From: Planctomycetota bacterium | GTDB lineage: Bacteria; Planctomycetota; Phycisphaerae; UBA1845 | DNA length: 33,516 nt | Reading direction: 5' to 3' | NCBI GenBank assembly: GCA_024280855.1 | Contig: JAJRPG010000005.1 | Location: 1 to 33,516 of the forward strand | Shown: one piece after another, positions 22,418 through 26,276 of the stretch | Numbering within the stretch: position 1 is the first letter of the stretch | Layout of the letters: every line of letters starts with the position of its first letter | The notes under the pieces: generated by a model | Database searches by the model: none | Told to the model about the DNA's origin: nothing | Seen by the model: the letters and a program-made list of their open reading frames with translations, nothing else | Program-made: the position numbers and the translations under genes

Positions 22418-22473
22418 ATAATGGCCATCATATAATAGCCATTTCGTAACGGCCATTTCGTAATGGCTATCTC
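22418..22473. repeat. Four tandem 14-bp repeats at the end of the par operon
   Basis: Repeats: ATAATGGCCATCAT (22418), ATAATAGCCATTTC (22432), GTAACGGCCATTTC (22446) and GTAATGGCTATCTC (22460), consensus RTAAYRGCYATYTC, with no gap between them. Each holds the same YRGCYA core as the large array at 23911-24483, here at a strict 14-bp spacing. The last copies overlap the end of the parB-like gene. This is probably a second binding array for the same protein. An iteron role in replication is the alternative. Confidence 0.75.
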
Positions 22474-22955
22474 GACTGTTTTTTTATCGCCTGAAACAAA
22501 TCTAGAAGGTAATTGGAGAGATCGGCTTCGAACTCTGCCATACCATCCTCGCTGCCGTTTGCTGGCCTTCTCAACGGTGGAGCCGAGACACGATCCATCA
22601 CATCTTCGGTGTCCAGCAATAATGCCCACATGGCACGCGTGACTTGGCTAAATTGAACTTTGGTGCCTACCCTTCTACCAATTCGTCTCGACAAATCGTC
22701 GATCATGTCTTCCTCTTCACTCGACACTAAAAGACGCTTTGTCTTGGAACTTTGTGTAACAGGCAGTCGATTCTGCAATCGTCGAGTAGCTTGCTTTCTA
22801 GGGCGCGAAGGTCTGGGGGTTTCTACTCTACTTTCTTCTTTCGCCAGGGGCTGTGGCGGCTGTGACGATGAAAGCATTGTGGCTTCTCTGGCCAAAGAAG
22901 TAAGGATTGGGCTTTCATCACCCAGCACATCTGCAATCGCATCCCGTTTAGCCAT
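22467..22955 (-). CDS. Ribbon-helix-helix centromere-binding protein (ParB-like partner)
   Basis: The 162-aa product starts 8 bases inside the end of parA (ATG 22955), so translation is coupled. Residues 1-70 are Pro/Ser/Arg-rich and probably disordered, with a basic patch RPSRPRKQATRRLQNR, which in such partners often stimulates the ParA ATPase. Residues of about 70-120 (KTKRLLVSSEEEDMIDDLSRRIG, VQFSQVTRAMWALLL) fit a ribbon-helix-helix DNA-binding fold: strand, two helices. The C-terminal 35 residues are acidic and helical. The genetic position next to parA and between two arrays of the TRGCYA core makes it the likely binder of those repeats. This partner-type ParB (type Ib) usually also represses its operon. 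The RHH call is from pattern, not alignment. Confidence 0.72.
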   Translation of the reverse strand: MAKRDAIADVLGDESPILTSLAREATMLSSSQPPQPLAKEESRVETPRPSRPRKQATRRLQNRLPVTQSSKTKRLLVSSEEEDMIDDLSRRIGRRVGTKVQFSQVTRAMWALLLDTEDVMDRVSAPPLRRPANGSEDGMAEFEADLSNYLLDLFQAIKKQSR

Positions 22956-23868
22956 TGACCACTTGCTCCACTACGTTTGCCTCGTCCTCTGACGTAGTTA
23001 CTTTGCTATCAACGCGCTCTTCCACCTCGCGAGCGAGATTACGATAAAGATCGCGCACTTCGTTGGTTGTACTAACCTCACTGGAGGGCGGATCGTAATC
23101 AAATAACGATAAACACAATGTAGAAGCTTTTCCGATCACCGCACGAGACGGTACAACAGTCTCAAAGAGACCGAACCCCCCCGCTGCTTCCAAATCCTTA
23201 CCGACCTTGGCAACATAAGTCCTTTGAAGCTTACGCCGACCATCCACCTGTGACATGATTGCACCCAAAACCCGTAATGATGGATTCACATTCTTAGCGG
23301 CAATGATATCCCGCATGGACCTCCGCAAGGCATCAACGGAGAGTTTTTCAGCCGTAGATGACAAAATAAACCACTCAGCCGCCTTATAGGCCGCAATCGT
23401 TAGCGTGCCAGCATTCGGGGCTGTATCCAGGAATATAAAATCATACTTACCTGAAAGCTCTGCCAATGGTCGTCCCAGTGTATCAATTGGCGAAATGAAT
23501 TTCAATTCGCCATCTTCCTCAGCTGCCGACGCAAATTCCTTCTCAAAATTCTCTATACGACGACTGGCTGGAATGACGTGGACGTTTTTTGGCAATGTAA
23601 TCATTTCGCCCGGTCGTGACGCCCTCTCCTGCTGGCTTTCGCTAGTGACAATCACATCCTCAACAGCTTCCTGCCTCGTAAGCATATGAAACGTCCCGAC
23701 CGTCGTTAGCGGAATGTCGAATGATAGCGTCAACCCCAGATTTGAATCGAGATCAACCACTAGACATTTGCGACCTCTCTCACCCAGCGCTGCTGCCAGA
23801 TGAATAGCGTTGGTCGTTTTACATACGCCCCCTTTTTGATTTCCGATGCCGATGATGTGCGTTTTCAT
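22948..23868 (-). CDS. parA: ParA-family partition ATPase
   Basis: ATG 23868 has an AGGTGA ribosome site (23872-23877). The product has 306 aa. The deviant Walker A reads KGGVCKTT (12-19) with both signature lysines (Lys12, Lys17), followed by the switch region VVDLDSN (Asp39, Asp41) and Walker B KYDFIFLDTAPNAG. A Cys (16) stands where Gly is usual (KGGVGKTT). There is no N-terminal HTH, so autoregulation must come from its partner. ParA proteins of this kind move plasmid copies along the nucleoid by ATP-dependent DNA binding and release by the ParB-centromere complex. The first repeat block of the array begins 43 bases before the start codon. Confidence 0.93.
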   Translation of the reverse strand: MKTHIIGIGNQKGGVCKTTNAIHLAAALGERGRKCLVVDLDSNLGLTLSFDIPLTTVGTFHMLTRQEAVEDVIVTSESQQERASRPGEMITLPKNVHVIPASRRIENFEKEFASAAEEDGELKFISPIDTLGRPLAELSGKYDFIFLDTAPNAGTLTIAAYKAAEWFILSSTAEKLSVDALRRSMRDIIAAKNVNPSLRVLGAIMSQVDGRRKLQRTYVAKVGKDLEAAGGFGLFETVVPSRAVIGKASTLCLSLFDYDPPSSEVSTTNEVRDLYRNLAREVEERVDSKVTTSEDEANVVEQVVNG

Positions 23869-23910: not shown

Positions 23911-23984
23911 TGGCCATCTGGCCATTTTATGATATGGCTGTTATATAATAGCTACTTAGCTATATAGCTTTTTTGTAATAGCCA
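23911..23984. repeat. Centromere block 1
   Basis: Cores at 23911 TGGCCA, 23919 TGGCCA, 23935 TGGCTG, 23949 TAGCTA, 23957 TAGCTA, 23965 TAGCTT and 23979 TAGCCA. Offset 16 is degenerate (TTATGA). Confidence 0.8.
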
Positions 23985-24067
23985 TGACAAATACAACCCA
24001 TCGCAGTTCAGCTTGACACCAACCATTTGCATTGTCAATTGTAAAGACGATCAGGCCACGCGATAAA

Positions 24068-24141
24068 TAGCTAGATAGCCATTTCATGTTATAGCCGTTA
24101 TAAAATGGCCAGATGGCCAGATAGGCATTTAGAAATGGCCA
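24068..24141. repeat. Centromere block 2
   Basis: Cores at 24068 TAGCTA, 24076 TAGCCA, 24092 TAGCCG, 24106 TGGCCA, 24114 TGGCCA, 24122 TAGGCA and 24136 TGGCCA. Offset 16 is degenerate (TCATGT). Confidence 0.8.
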
Positions 24142-24224
24142 TCATGTTACGAGCGAGGATTAATCTAAAATGCTTACATCGCTTCTATTGTCGAGACTAA
24201 TAACTAATCGAGATACAATCAAGA

Positions 24225-24298
24225 TAGCCAAATGGACATCTGGCTATCTAGCTATTATATAATAGCCAACTAGCTAACTAGCCACTTTATAATAGCCA
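24225..24298. repeat. Centromere block 3 (all eight positions occupied)
   Basis: Cores at 24225 TAGCCA, 24233 TGGACA, 24241 TGGCTA, 24249 TAGCTA, 24263 TAGCCA, 24271 TAGCTA, 24279 TAGCCA and 24293 TAGCCA. This is the only block in which the offset-16 position carries a good core. Confidence 0.8.
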
Positions 24299-24380
24299 TA
24301 ACAGTTCAACCATCACATATTCAGCAGTCTCTAAATCTCTCAAGACAACAAACACCAGAGTGGTTAATTCGCGCACATAA

Positions 24381-24462
24381 TAGCCATTTGGCTATTTCAA
24401 GAAATAGCTATTAAGTGATGGCTAGATGGCTAGATGGCCTTTTTGAAATAGCCAAATAGCTA
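24381..24462. repeat. Centromere block 4 with an extra core
   Basis: Cores at 24381 TAGCCA, 24389 TGGCTA, 24405 TAGCTA, 24419 TGGCTA, 24427 TGGCTA, 24435 TGGCCT and 24449 TAGCCA, plus an additional TAGCTA at 24457 (offset 76). Weaker cores CGGCTA (24470) and TCGCCA (24478) follow up to the ribosome site of the next gene. Offset 16 is degenerate (TCAAGA). Confidence 0.8.
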
Positions 24463-24497
24463 TAACAAGCGGCTAGATCGCCATCCAGGAGCCAAAA

Positions 24498-24767: not shown

Positions 24768-24806
24768 TGGCGGGGTTTTATTGCCTACGCGGAAATGGAG
24801 TTCCGC

Positions 24807-26276
24807 ATGACCGAGTTACTCACGAAGCCCCAAAACCTGCGGAGCAGGGGGGGGCAGGCACCGATTGGCATCCGCCATCAAACCATCGAGGGCGGTTTTA
24901 TCAAAATAACCGTCCATCAACTCGCCCTTATGGCGTGGATGCACCGAGAAGGGCACATTTCGCGCCGCCAATGGCGTATTTGCTTTGCCGCCTTCGAAAT
25001 GCAAGCCAGACGCCGCTACATGGAAAAGGGCCGAAAGCCTTTGTACCAAAGAGCCGAGCTTCTAAAACTGATAGGGGGGCAGGGGACCGGCATCACCGCA
25101 GACTTGAAACACCTCGCCCAAATCGGCTTATTATGTTTCACCGAGCAAAACATTGACTTGGCCGTTTCGATAGATCAAATCAAAATCGATGACATTTCCG
25201 GGTTCTGGGACATATATCAAATCATCCCCAACCGGAAACGCTCTATTCCTATTCCAAGACGAACCGTCCGTACACTAGCTATAGGCCTATCAAGGGCCAC
25301 TATGGTCACCATGACCGCACTTCTTATCCGTGCCATGTTCTGGCACAAAGAGCAGGGCAACCACCGTATTGACGGACGGGTAACACGCGGCTGGATTGCC
25401 GATATCTTCGGCGTATCGCCTCGATCCGTCACCACAGCCATGAATGAACTCATCGAAATCGGCTGGATGGATAGGGTTCCATGCACCCAATGGGAATTGA
25501 ATAAATGGGGCCAAAGATTTGTCATTCATCCCGACTGGTCGCCTGATTCGACCGCCGCACGAGAAGTGGGGGGGTTAAGCCAATCTTCCACCCCAACCCC
25601 TCAAAAAGTGAGTCAATCTTCCACCCTATTAAACAGAACGCCTTTTCCTAACGGAAAAGATATAAAAACCAGAAGACCCGAGGCTGACGCTTCGCTCCGC
25701 CCGGACCGCACTGGTGTTTTTAAGACTCAGATTTCAAAAAAAGGTTGCCTGCAAGCCAGCAGTGCTACCCAAAGGCCAAAACCGAGGCTTTCCAACGTGT
25801 TGCCAGAGGATTTACAATCAACGGACAGAATGTTGGCACTATTCCAGCAAGCTACGGAGAAAAAACTCATTGCCAACAGCGAAGCAGGGCGGCTGGATTT
25901 TGTAGCCCTGGCCGAAAGGGCCAAAACCGAAGGGGCCAATCCGCCCGCCTTGTTTTCCTGGCTTTTAAGGCATAAACGCTTTGATTACATCACCCAATCG
26001 GATGAAGAAGCTTCGCGAATTCGCCTCAAATCACTTTACCAAGACGATTCCGACGATTTACAGTCGGTCCAAGCGCCTAAATCGGAGTGTAAGCCGTTCC
26101 GGCTCACCGAGAATGAACGCTTCGTTAGGGCCTGCTTGCAAGTTTCAGGGCAGACCCGTCACGAACCTCATATCCTCGCCCATGAAGCCAAGGGATGGAG
26201 CTATGAGCAATGGGAAGCCTTCCACGAGGCCTATCAGCAGAAAGACCGAGATCGGTGGGCTAATGATGCGGAATAG
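24807..26276 (+). CDS. Probable plasmid replication initiator (winged-helix protein)
   Basis: The preferred start is ATG 24807, with TGGAG (24796-24800) at 6 bases; ATG 24795 is in frame but has no such site. The product has 489 aa. Two helix-turn-helix-like segments are visible in the N-terminal 250 residues: one around GITADLKHLAQIGLL, the other GWIADIFGVSPRSVTTAMNELIEIGWMDRV, a good winged-helix pattern. A Ser/Thr/Pro-rich linker (about 250-330) precedes a second charged helical domain ending WSYEQWEAFHEAYQQKDRDRW. The position beside par, with inverted repeats in front and parDE behind, is what one expects of a rep gene, and no other candidate exists in the window. I do not recognise a named Rep family, so a transcription regulator remains possible. 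Confidence 0.62.
   Translation: MTELLTKPQNLRSRGGQAPIGIRHQTIEGGFIKITVHQLALMAWMHREGHISRRQWRICFAAFEMQARRRYMEKGRKPLYQRAELLKLIGGQGTGITADLKHLAQIGLLCFTEQNIDLAVSIDQIKIDDISGFWDIYQIIPNRKRSIPIPRRTVRTLAIGLSRATMVTMTALLIRAMFWHKEQGNHRIDGRVTRGWIADIFGVSPRSVTTAMNELIEIGWMDRVPCTQWELNKWGQRFVIHPDWSPDSTAAREVGGLSQSSTPTPQKVSQSSTLLNRTPFPNGKDIKTRRPEADASLRPDRTGVFKTQISKKGCLQASSATQRPKPRLSNVLPEDLQSTDRMLALFQQATEKKLIANSEAGRLDFVALAERAKTEGANPPALFSWLLRHKRFDYITQSDEEASRIRLKSLYQDDSDDLQSVQAPKSECKPFRLTENERFVRACLQVSGQTRHEPHILAHEAKGWSYEQWEAFHEAYQQKDRDRWANDAE

Follow-up and report, generated by a model that had tools for sequence, protein, structure and literature searches.

The ParA-type Walker ATPases of type Ib plasmid partition systems lack an N-terminal DNA-binding domain. 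The delta/omega module of pSM19035, which belongs to this type, is among the closest described counterparts of the locus considered here, an array of TRGCYA palindromes upstream of parA in a 33,516-bp contig from a Planctomycetota bacterium (the window, meaning the whole stretch of DNA that was analysed). In pSM19035, dimers of the ribbon-helix-helix (RHH) protein omega, each bound to a 7-bp repeat, form a left-handed protein helix around the DNA, and activation of ParA is described as requiring four or more contiguous repeats (PMC9499535; PMC5016525). The likeness, as far as these sources describe the system, lies in a small RHH centromere protein with a flexible N-terminus and in very short sites that are arrayed at several places, overlap promoters and take one dimer each (PMC9499535; PMC5016525). 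In contrast to the window, however, omega is described as reading contiguous, non-palindromic heptads, at least four without a gap, and each gene has its own promoter (PMC9499535; PMC5016525). In the window, palindromes are centred 8 bp apart and interrupted by regular 14-bp breaks, and parA and parB overlap; omega and the window ParB are compared here by description.

The boxes bound by ParG of TP228 are spaced 8 bp. In this ParF/ParG/parH system, also of type Ib, a small RHH protein is described as coating degenerate short boxes upstream of the operon, as in the reading we propose for the window, with AT-rich spacers between the boxes; unlike the window sites, the boxes are tetramers and not palindromes (PMC7308502; PMC5016525). 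Searched against the PDB as a profile, the window ParA finds 1wcv, a 'segregation protein', as its best match (E 5.1e-49); the delta-type ParA of pSM19035 (2oze, E 5.6e-21) is also a relative, and TP228 ParF (4dzz, E 1.7e-12) is more distant than either. The pCXC100 repeat unit is 9 bp, comparable to the lattice of about 9 bp that we find in three relatives of the window locus (L013, L056 and L058). A review describes the type Ib ParB of pCXC100 as an RHH centromere protein, the probable type of the window protein as well, and, unlike the window, gives direct repeats only. In the par locus of Myxococcus pMF1, an orphan ParB is reported to bind imperfect repeats on either side of the operon, ItA upstream and ItB downstream, with units like AGATGTCT, an imperfect complement repeat (PMC3235114). 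Repeats on both sides of the operon liken pMF1 to the window by description, as would its type Ib autorepression if the window array is an operator too, whereas an extra parC gene and the few repeats near the operon set it apart (PMC3235114).

We propose that the window array serves as centromere, and probably as operator too, for a type Ib-like module of plasmid partition that consists of parA and a small RHH-like parB, a reading to which, from sequence comparison, we give a probability of roughly 80%. Among the matches listed in a search of open-licence PMC papers, there was no report of this ParB family or of the rule of steps set out below.

Architecture of the array and its module

The window makes up an entire contig, one of 112 in a 4.56-Mb genome. 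Its relevant features, in order along the contig, are:

22422..22469, unstranded: second array, with sites at 22422, 22436, 22450 (one mismatch) and 22464, in exact 14-bp steps
22467..22955, minus strand: parB-like gene, 162 aa, overlapping the 3' end of parA
22948..23868, minus strand: parA, a 306-aa ParA-family Walker ATPase with its P-loop at the extreme N-terminus
23911..23984, unstranded: block 1, nearest parA, with sites at offsets 0, 8, 24', 38, 46, 54' and 68 (a prime marks one mismatch, here and below)
23985..24067, unstranded: spacer 1, 83 bp, with 0 exact sites and a single one-mismatch match at 24053, off the block code
24068..24141, unstranded: block 2, with sites at offsets 0, 8, 24', 38, 46, 54' and 68
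24142..24224, unstranded: spacer 2, 83 bp, with 0 exact sites and a single one-mismatch match at 24201
24225..24298, unstranded: block 3, with sites at offsets 0, 8', 16, 24, 38, 46, 54 and 68
24299..24380, unstranded: spacer 3, 82 bp, with 0 exact sites and a single one-mismatch match at 24361
24381..24483, unstranded: block 4, with sites at offsets 0, 8, 24, 38, 46, 54', 68 and 76, and degenerate sites at 89 and 97
24795..26276, plus strand: Rep-like gene, 493 aa, divergent from parAB and across the array from parA

Exact TRGCYA sites number 60 in the window, where 24.4 are expected (sd 5.4; no more than 40 in any of 100 shuffles), and the densest 600 bp hold 24 of them against 0.51 expected. 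Tandem pairs at 8 bp occur 16 times in the 4.56-Mb genome, ten of them in the main array. The four blocks start at 23911, 24068, 24225 and 24381; a recount agrees with the original prediction that these starts lie 157, 157 and 156 bp apart, that the intervening spacers measure 83, 83 and 82 bp, and that block 3 has an additional site at offset 16. The accompanying claim that all four blocks use the same offsets holds if one mismatch is allowed and fails for exact sites, since the shared offsets (0, 8, 24, 38, 46, 54 and 68) are exact in 22 of 28 cells and carry one mismatch in the other six (24 and 54 in blocks 1 and 2, 8 in block 3 and 54 in block 4). Each block opens with a run of up to four sites; after a break come three more and then a further break, with steps of 8 bp (a 2-bp linker) or 14 bp (an 8-bp linker, mostly A/T) and one 16-bp step in every block where offset 16 is empty. 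Block 4 continues with offset 76 and the degenerate sites that follow it, which accounts for the array end at 24483 in the original prediction.

Linker sequence inside the blocks has been conserved from one block to the next (111 identities in 192 pairwise comparisons, expectation 65; reached in 0 of 5000 shuffles), and this conservation, together with the site counts against shuffles and the density over 600 bp, rules out a chance origin of the array. The spacers, said in the original prediction to share no sequence, indeed show no significant similarity in any of the three pairs (ungapped p 0.07-0.21, local 0.20-0.84, global 0.10-0.77). Register 0 ranks second of 51 shifts in this comparison, a faint hint that the spacers may be of common descent. 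A consensus promoter scan for parA inside the array found none; in the relative L157, whose array is the same as that of L051, TTGACA and GATAAT hexamers 18 bp apart are visible by eye between blocks.

In the window ParA, which matches PF13614 in Pfam (E 6.9e-27), the conserved GNQKGG begins at residue 9 and leaves no room for an N-terminal DNA-binding domain; this absence, and the presence of short repeats upstream of the par operon, are both features of type Ib. All 17 ParA sequences compared keep both lysines of KGGxxK. The window P-loop has a Cys (KGGVCKTT) where relatives have Gly, Ala or Thr, and one relative has KGGCGKT.

The overlap of parA and parB recurs in most relatives. The window ParB finds no match in Pfam, NCBIfam or PHROG at E 0.1, and 27 members of its family, searched against Pfam and NCBIfam, gave stray weak matches only (DUF6203, AlkA_N, TonB, GltJ and similar), none of them to a ParB family. 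Canonical ParB/Spo0J proteins have an HTH/CTPase fold that curated families recognise; with no match to a curated family of this kind in the libraries searched, the window module does not class as a canonical (type Ia/chromosomal) ParABS system. A sequence search of the PDB gave nothing plausible, the top match being a myosin light chain at E 0.011. An AlphaFold2 monomer model has a pLDDT of about 56-72 up to residue 70, followed by helices at 79-96, 102-115, 117-120 and 136-161 in a confidently modelled C-terminal half. The first two of these helices come after the stretch that would be the RHH strand, although the monomer models lack a strand. Foldseek gave no match at E<=0.001 for the full or the trimmed model, which is no evidence for a new fold. 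Weak fold matches include RHH proteins (a PutA domain with Z 3.8 and rmsd 2.2 over 46 residues; TraM, Z 3.9; ParD2, Z 3.5; and pCXC100 ParB, 3no7, with Z 3.3 and rmsd 2.5 over 41 residues), but unrelated helical folds score as high or higher. We take the window ParB to be probably an RHH protein, these fold matches being too weak to carry the assignment by themselves; the prediction of a partition array with a small, probably RHH partner is supported. The third residue is basic (K or R) in 26 of 27 members, which would be in keeping with a tail that activates ParA.

The Rep-like gene finds no match in NCBIfam and only weak HTH matches in Pfam; from these and its position we take it to be a putative replication initiator. 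A homologue is found in the flank of 38 of 45 relatives, and in 26 of the 31 classed as array-bearing it is divergent and lies beyond the upstream region. In many members, the array sits between parA and the Rep-like gene, so that rep-array-parAB forms a conserved module. The contig also carries MobC/NikA-like, relaxase and coupling-protein genes, and is therefore likely a mobilizable plasmid or an integrated element; no terminal overlap indicating circularity was found.

Steps and site letters across the family

With its own genome included, 6 of 51 genomes from the family and 17 of 397 drawn from the class have a match to the window ParB; the same-genus genomes G023 and G024 have none. Among 114 genomes of the order, the nearest ParA is 49% identical (G029) and is accompanied by CATATG sites. 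A scan of GTDB genomes with the single ParA query confirmed no place, and a scan with a ParA alignment confirmed 250, the best 80 of which were kept. The ParB family follows parA in 39 of these 80 loci, in one case (L064) some 220 bp further downstream, and is absent from the other 41, which provide a natural control set. A scan of viral contigs gave 25 loci. Members occur in planctomycetes, verrucomicrobia (including Akkermansia MAGs), Acidobacteria and Bryobacterales MAGs, cyanobacteria, a Porticoccaceae MAG and a Thermoleophilia MAG, and on the named plasmids pNe_5 and pNSMS102 of Nostoc, pLBX of Leptolyngbya and pPSMK1 of Phycisphaera. Isosphaera plasmid pISOP01 (L148) has a related ParA, with a 61-bp tandem repeat and simple repeats upstream in place of an 8-bp lattice.

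To search for periodicity without presupposing a motif, we took the 600 bp upstream of parA and compared, distance by distance, the number of recurring 4-mers with that in Markov shuffles; this covered 46 non-redundant family loci (the window and 45 others) and 39 control parA loci. Three loci were dropped as too short (L052, L078 and L109) and four as redundant (L054, L075, L100 and L096), while L043 and L044, 79.5% alike, were both kept; six that repeat kept loci (L012, L015, L016, L031, L038 and L040) and three with no parA by tblastn (L035, L037 and L042) were not included. At lag 8, z is at least 3 in 21 of 46 family loci and in none of 39 controls, the peak being missing in the other 25 family loci. 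The corresponding numbers for family and controls are 19 and 0 at lag 16, 12 and 1 at lag 24, and 9 and 0 at lag 32; lags 14, 22 and 28 reach this level in 5, 4 and 4 family loci against none of the controls, and lag 30 in 4 against 2. The controls, whose upstream regions include coding DNA, peak at multiples of 3 as coding DNA does, for example at 12 and 21 (5 each). On pLBX, 21 repeats are counted at lag 8 against a mean of 4.0. In a scan of 35 loci in 300-bp segments, 19 reach a score of at least 12, with the best position upstream of parA in 15, inside the start-extended parA reading frame in 3 and in parB in 1. Thirteen further, previously unused parA loci, their ParB status unchecked, include five with z of at least 3 at lag 8 or 16. 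The 8-bp lattice recurs at related parA loci. The exact code TRGCYA-8-TRGCYA-14-TRGCYA is found among 184 loci only in L001, L004, L154 and L155, all from the window's own contig.

Sites also occur on the other side of the operon. The second array of the window, absent from the original prediction, overlaps the 3' end and stop codon of parB, and lag 14 has a z of 6.0 in the 500 bp 3' of the gene. Both Nostoc plasmids likewise have sites 3' of parB. Among 37 loci tested there, z is at least 3 at lag 8, 14 or 16 in six (L045, L046, L047, L079, L011 and the window); sites in this position are not a family rule.

Placed on a ParA tree of 46 rows, the steps follow ParA clades, being 8 bp only, 8 plus 14 bp (the window's clade) or about 9 bp. 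In a 15-locus clade, multiples of 8 have a mean z of 4.10, against -0.05 for 8a+14b lags and -0.06 for other lags. In the 11-locus clade of the window, the 8a+14b lags have a mean z of 1.17 and other lags -0.13; the difference between the clades at 8a+14b lags has p 5.8e-5 with the window left out; that set of lags was chosen post hoc, and the clades come from a ParA tree built afterwards. Support for placing the window in this clade is moderate (SH-aLRT 89) and its branch is long, and the data do not reject a tree that joins it to the other TRGCYA loci (p-AU 0.21). Four loci that form a clade with rep, parA and parB (L041, L072, L074 and L077) have no lattice upstream of parA by the lag test.

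Four site types, TRGCYA, CATATG, CGCG and GGACC, occur in the window's clade, where the letters thus appear to have changed under a kept step rule; the GGACC members have mainly 14-bp steps. In a five-locus clade, by contrast, TRGCYA-type letters are found throughout and the steps are 8 (L050), 8/14 (L032) or about 9 bp (L013, L056 and L058). The last three loci show steps of 9, 17, 26, 35 and 44 bp, as if the pitch were a non-integer of about 8.75. The original prediction that spacing and not sequence has been kept therefore describes the window's own ParA clade, in which 8/14 steps accompany other palindromes, and breaks down in the five-locus clade, in which letters are kept and steps differ. 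Over the tree, site class changes five times and lattice class four times, near the minimum for five and four classes, which were named by eye and in which the best enumerated palindrome differs from the label for L013, L030, L050 and L058 among others. Steps and letters therefore change separately, neither clearly faster than the other.

The site letters are associated with the predicted strand of ParB. Over 21 loci with a site class, seven predicted strand residues have an identity of 0.67 within and 0.19 between classes, compared with 41% and 27% for the remainder of the ParB domain. When this remainder is controlled for, strand and class have a partial correlation of 0.64; when the strand is controlled for, the remainder still correlates with class at 0.33 (0 of 2000 permutations in each case). 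That second correlation means that part of the strand signal comes from shared descent, which the permutation leaves in place. Among remote pairs, less than 30% identical elsewhere, strand identity is 49% within a class (10 pairs) and 19% between classes (121 pairs). The site labels were set before the strand table was made, but with the ParB sequences already visible; TGGTCATA was merged into CATATG, all CGCG forms were taken as one class, L036 was relabelled from 'GTCCCC?' to GGACC, and L034 and L064 were left out of this test. As a comparison of sequences, the association supports, and does not prove, the view that this ParB reads these sites.

The 157-bp block period

The regular period of the four blocks invites two explanations, both to be weighed within the centromere reading. 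We judge it slightly better than an even chance that the period reflects nothing but tandem duplication of a block with its spacer, so that neither the period nor the helix face would matter, a view compatible with a centromere. Block duplication is favoured because the linkers inside the blocks are conserved between blocks. Related plasmids carry block copies at other distances: in Nostoc edaphicum, two near-identical blocks lie 140 bp apart upstream of parA and parB is followed by five core copies, of which three are spaced at 88-bp steps; in Nostoc sp. MS1, two blocks lie 108 bp apart upstream and seven copies follow 3' of parB at 118, 131, 120, 131, 135 and 121 bp. The seven copies of TCGCGTTAACGCGA (L011, 5400-6170) stand amid partly repeated surroundings. 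Cluster distances differ among the other relatives and are irregular, and three more distant, diverged pairs of loci have 8, 6 and 11 gaps inside their arrays. The spacers of the window sit less easily with duplication, for they are dissimilar and yet 83, 83 and 82 bp long, where neutral drift would be expected to leave more indels; this equality of length is a hint of a length constraint.

The original prediction was that the partition complex has a fixed geometry, with spacer length and the helix face of the four blocks as functional elements, and this we consider unlikely. At 10.5 bp per turn, 157 bp is 14.95 turns and 156 bp is 14.86, and the lengths are equal within 1 bp. The Nostoc periods (88, 108, 118, 120, 121, 131, 135 and 140 bp), however, range from 8.38 to 13.33 turns and are mostly off-phase, so that in two relatives the spacing of blocks is seen to vary freely, which is the sequence half of an outcome named beforehand as refuting the idea (free variation while partition still works). 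Comparison of aligned pairs cuts both ways. Between L014 and L039, 3 gaps fall in the 270 columns of the array when its limits are set by its sites, against 17 in 303 outside (p 0.005; identity 64% in both), or 1 in 235 against 19 in 338 with a narrower bound that starts at -300 and excludes the outer sites (p 0.0004), and the gap-poor array includes a 63-bp step without a site; this leaves room for a constraint on length and counts against duplication alone. Between L043 and L044, on the other hand, there are 3 gaps in 253 columns inside and 3 in 337 outside (p 1.0), and the three diverged pairs mentioned above have gaps inside their arrays. The evidence for a conserved array length is thus mixed, and no close relative was found for a direct test of the 157-bp period. 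The period is probably a trace of block duplication, perhaps with a mild length constraint, and the sequences do not support it as a family rule.

Partition, replication and a possible two-part code

An origin of replication, with iterons bound by the divergent Rep-like protein or combined with a centromere, strikes us as improbable: the position of the Rep homologue beyond the upstream region in most array-bearing relatives would fit it, and repeats upstream of parAB in Deinococcus are described as serving as origin and parS-like element alike (PMC7671480), but both Nostoc plasmid loci have arrays and no Rep homologue in the 4-kb flank, none is present at L055, L057 or L049 (the last with 362 bp of flank) either, some loci have extra sites 3' of parB, away from rep, and the site letters associate with the ParB strand. 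We argue that partition is the primary role of the array, perhaps alongside a role as origin, because of the Nostoc loci, the sites 3' of parB and the association with the ParB strand. What stands against a centromere is the lack of a lag-8 peak in more than half of the family loci (25 of 46), the four-locus clade without a lattice, the weakness of the RHH assignment by fold search, the share of common descent in the strand signal, the position of the array next to a Rep-like gene in many members and the moderate support for the window's placement in its clade.

For a centromere, ParB binding, wrapping, repression and partition might be envisaged as follows. A ParB dimer would read each 6-bp palindrome through paired beta strands, and adjacent dimers on 8-bp centres would touch and wrap the DNA as a helix, so that the 8-bp lattice could act like the heptads of pSM19035 with a different pitch. 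The 14-bp steps would break the runs of ParB, ending or re-phasing the helix. Assembled blocks would present many basic ParB N-termini; these may stimulate nucleoid-bound ParA to hydrolyse ATP, and the plasmid would move as a result. Since type Ib centromere proteins are described as acting also as repressors (PMC5016525), the block closest to parA may double as the operator.

Tentatively, and at somewhat less than even odds, we suggest that the family uses a two-part code, in which contacts between ParB dimers would set the steps (8, 8/14 or about 8.75 bp), inherited with the ParA/ParB clade, and a few beta-strand residues would set the letters, which could be swapped. If so, new plasmid partition specificities could arise without rebuilding the array, and the 14-bp step would interrupt the ParB helix by design, in a way that pSM19035 does not tolerate. 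The module would add a partition family, with a ParB unrecognised by Pfam, NCBIfam and PHROG, in planctomycetes, verrucomicrobia, cyanobacteria and others. Its arrays suggest that natural centromeres can keep regular gaps, whereas pSM19035 needs contiguous repeats. Its natural variants separate step size from site letters, and thereby make it testable whether dimer-dimer spacing or base recognition defines an RHH partition complex, and how partition specificity changes.
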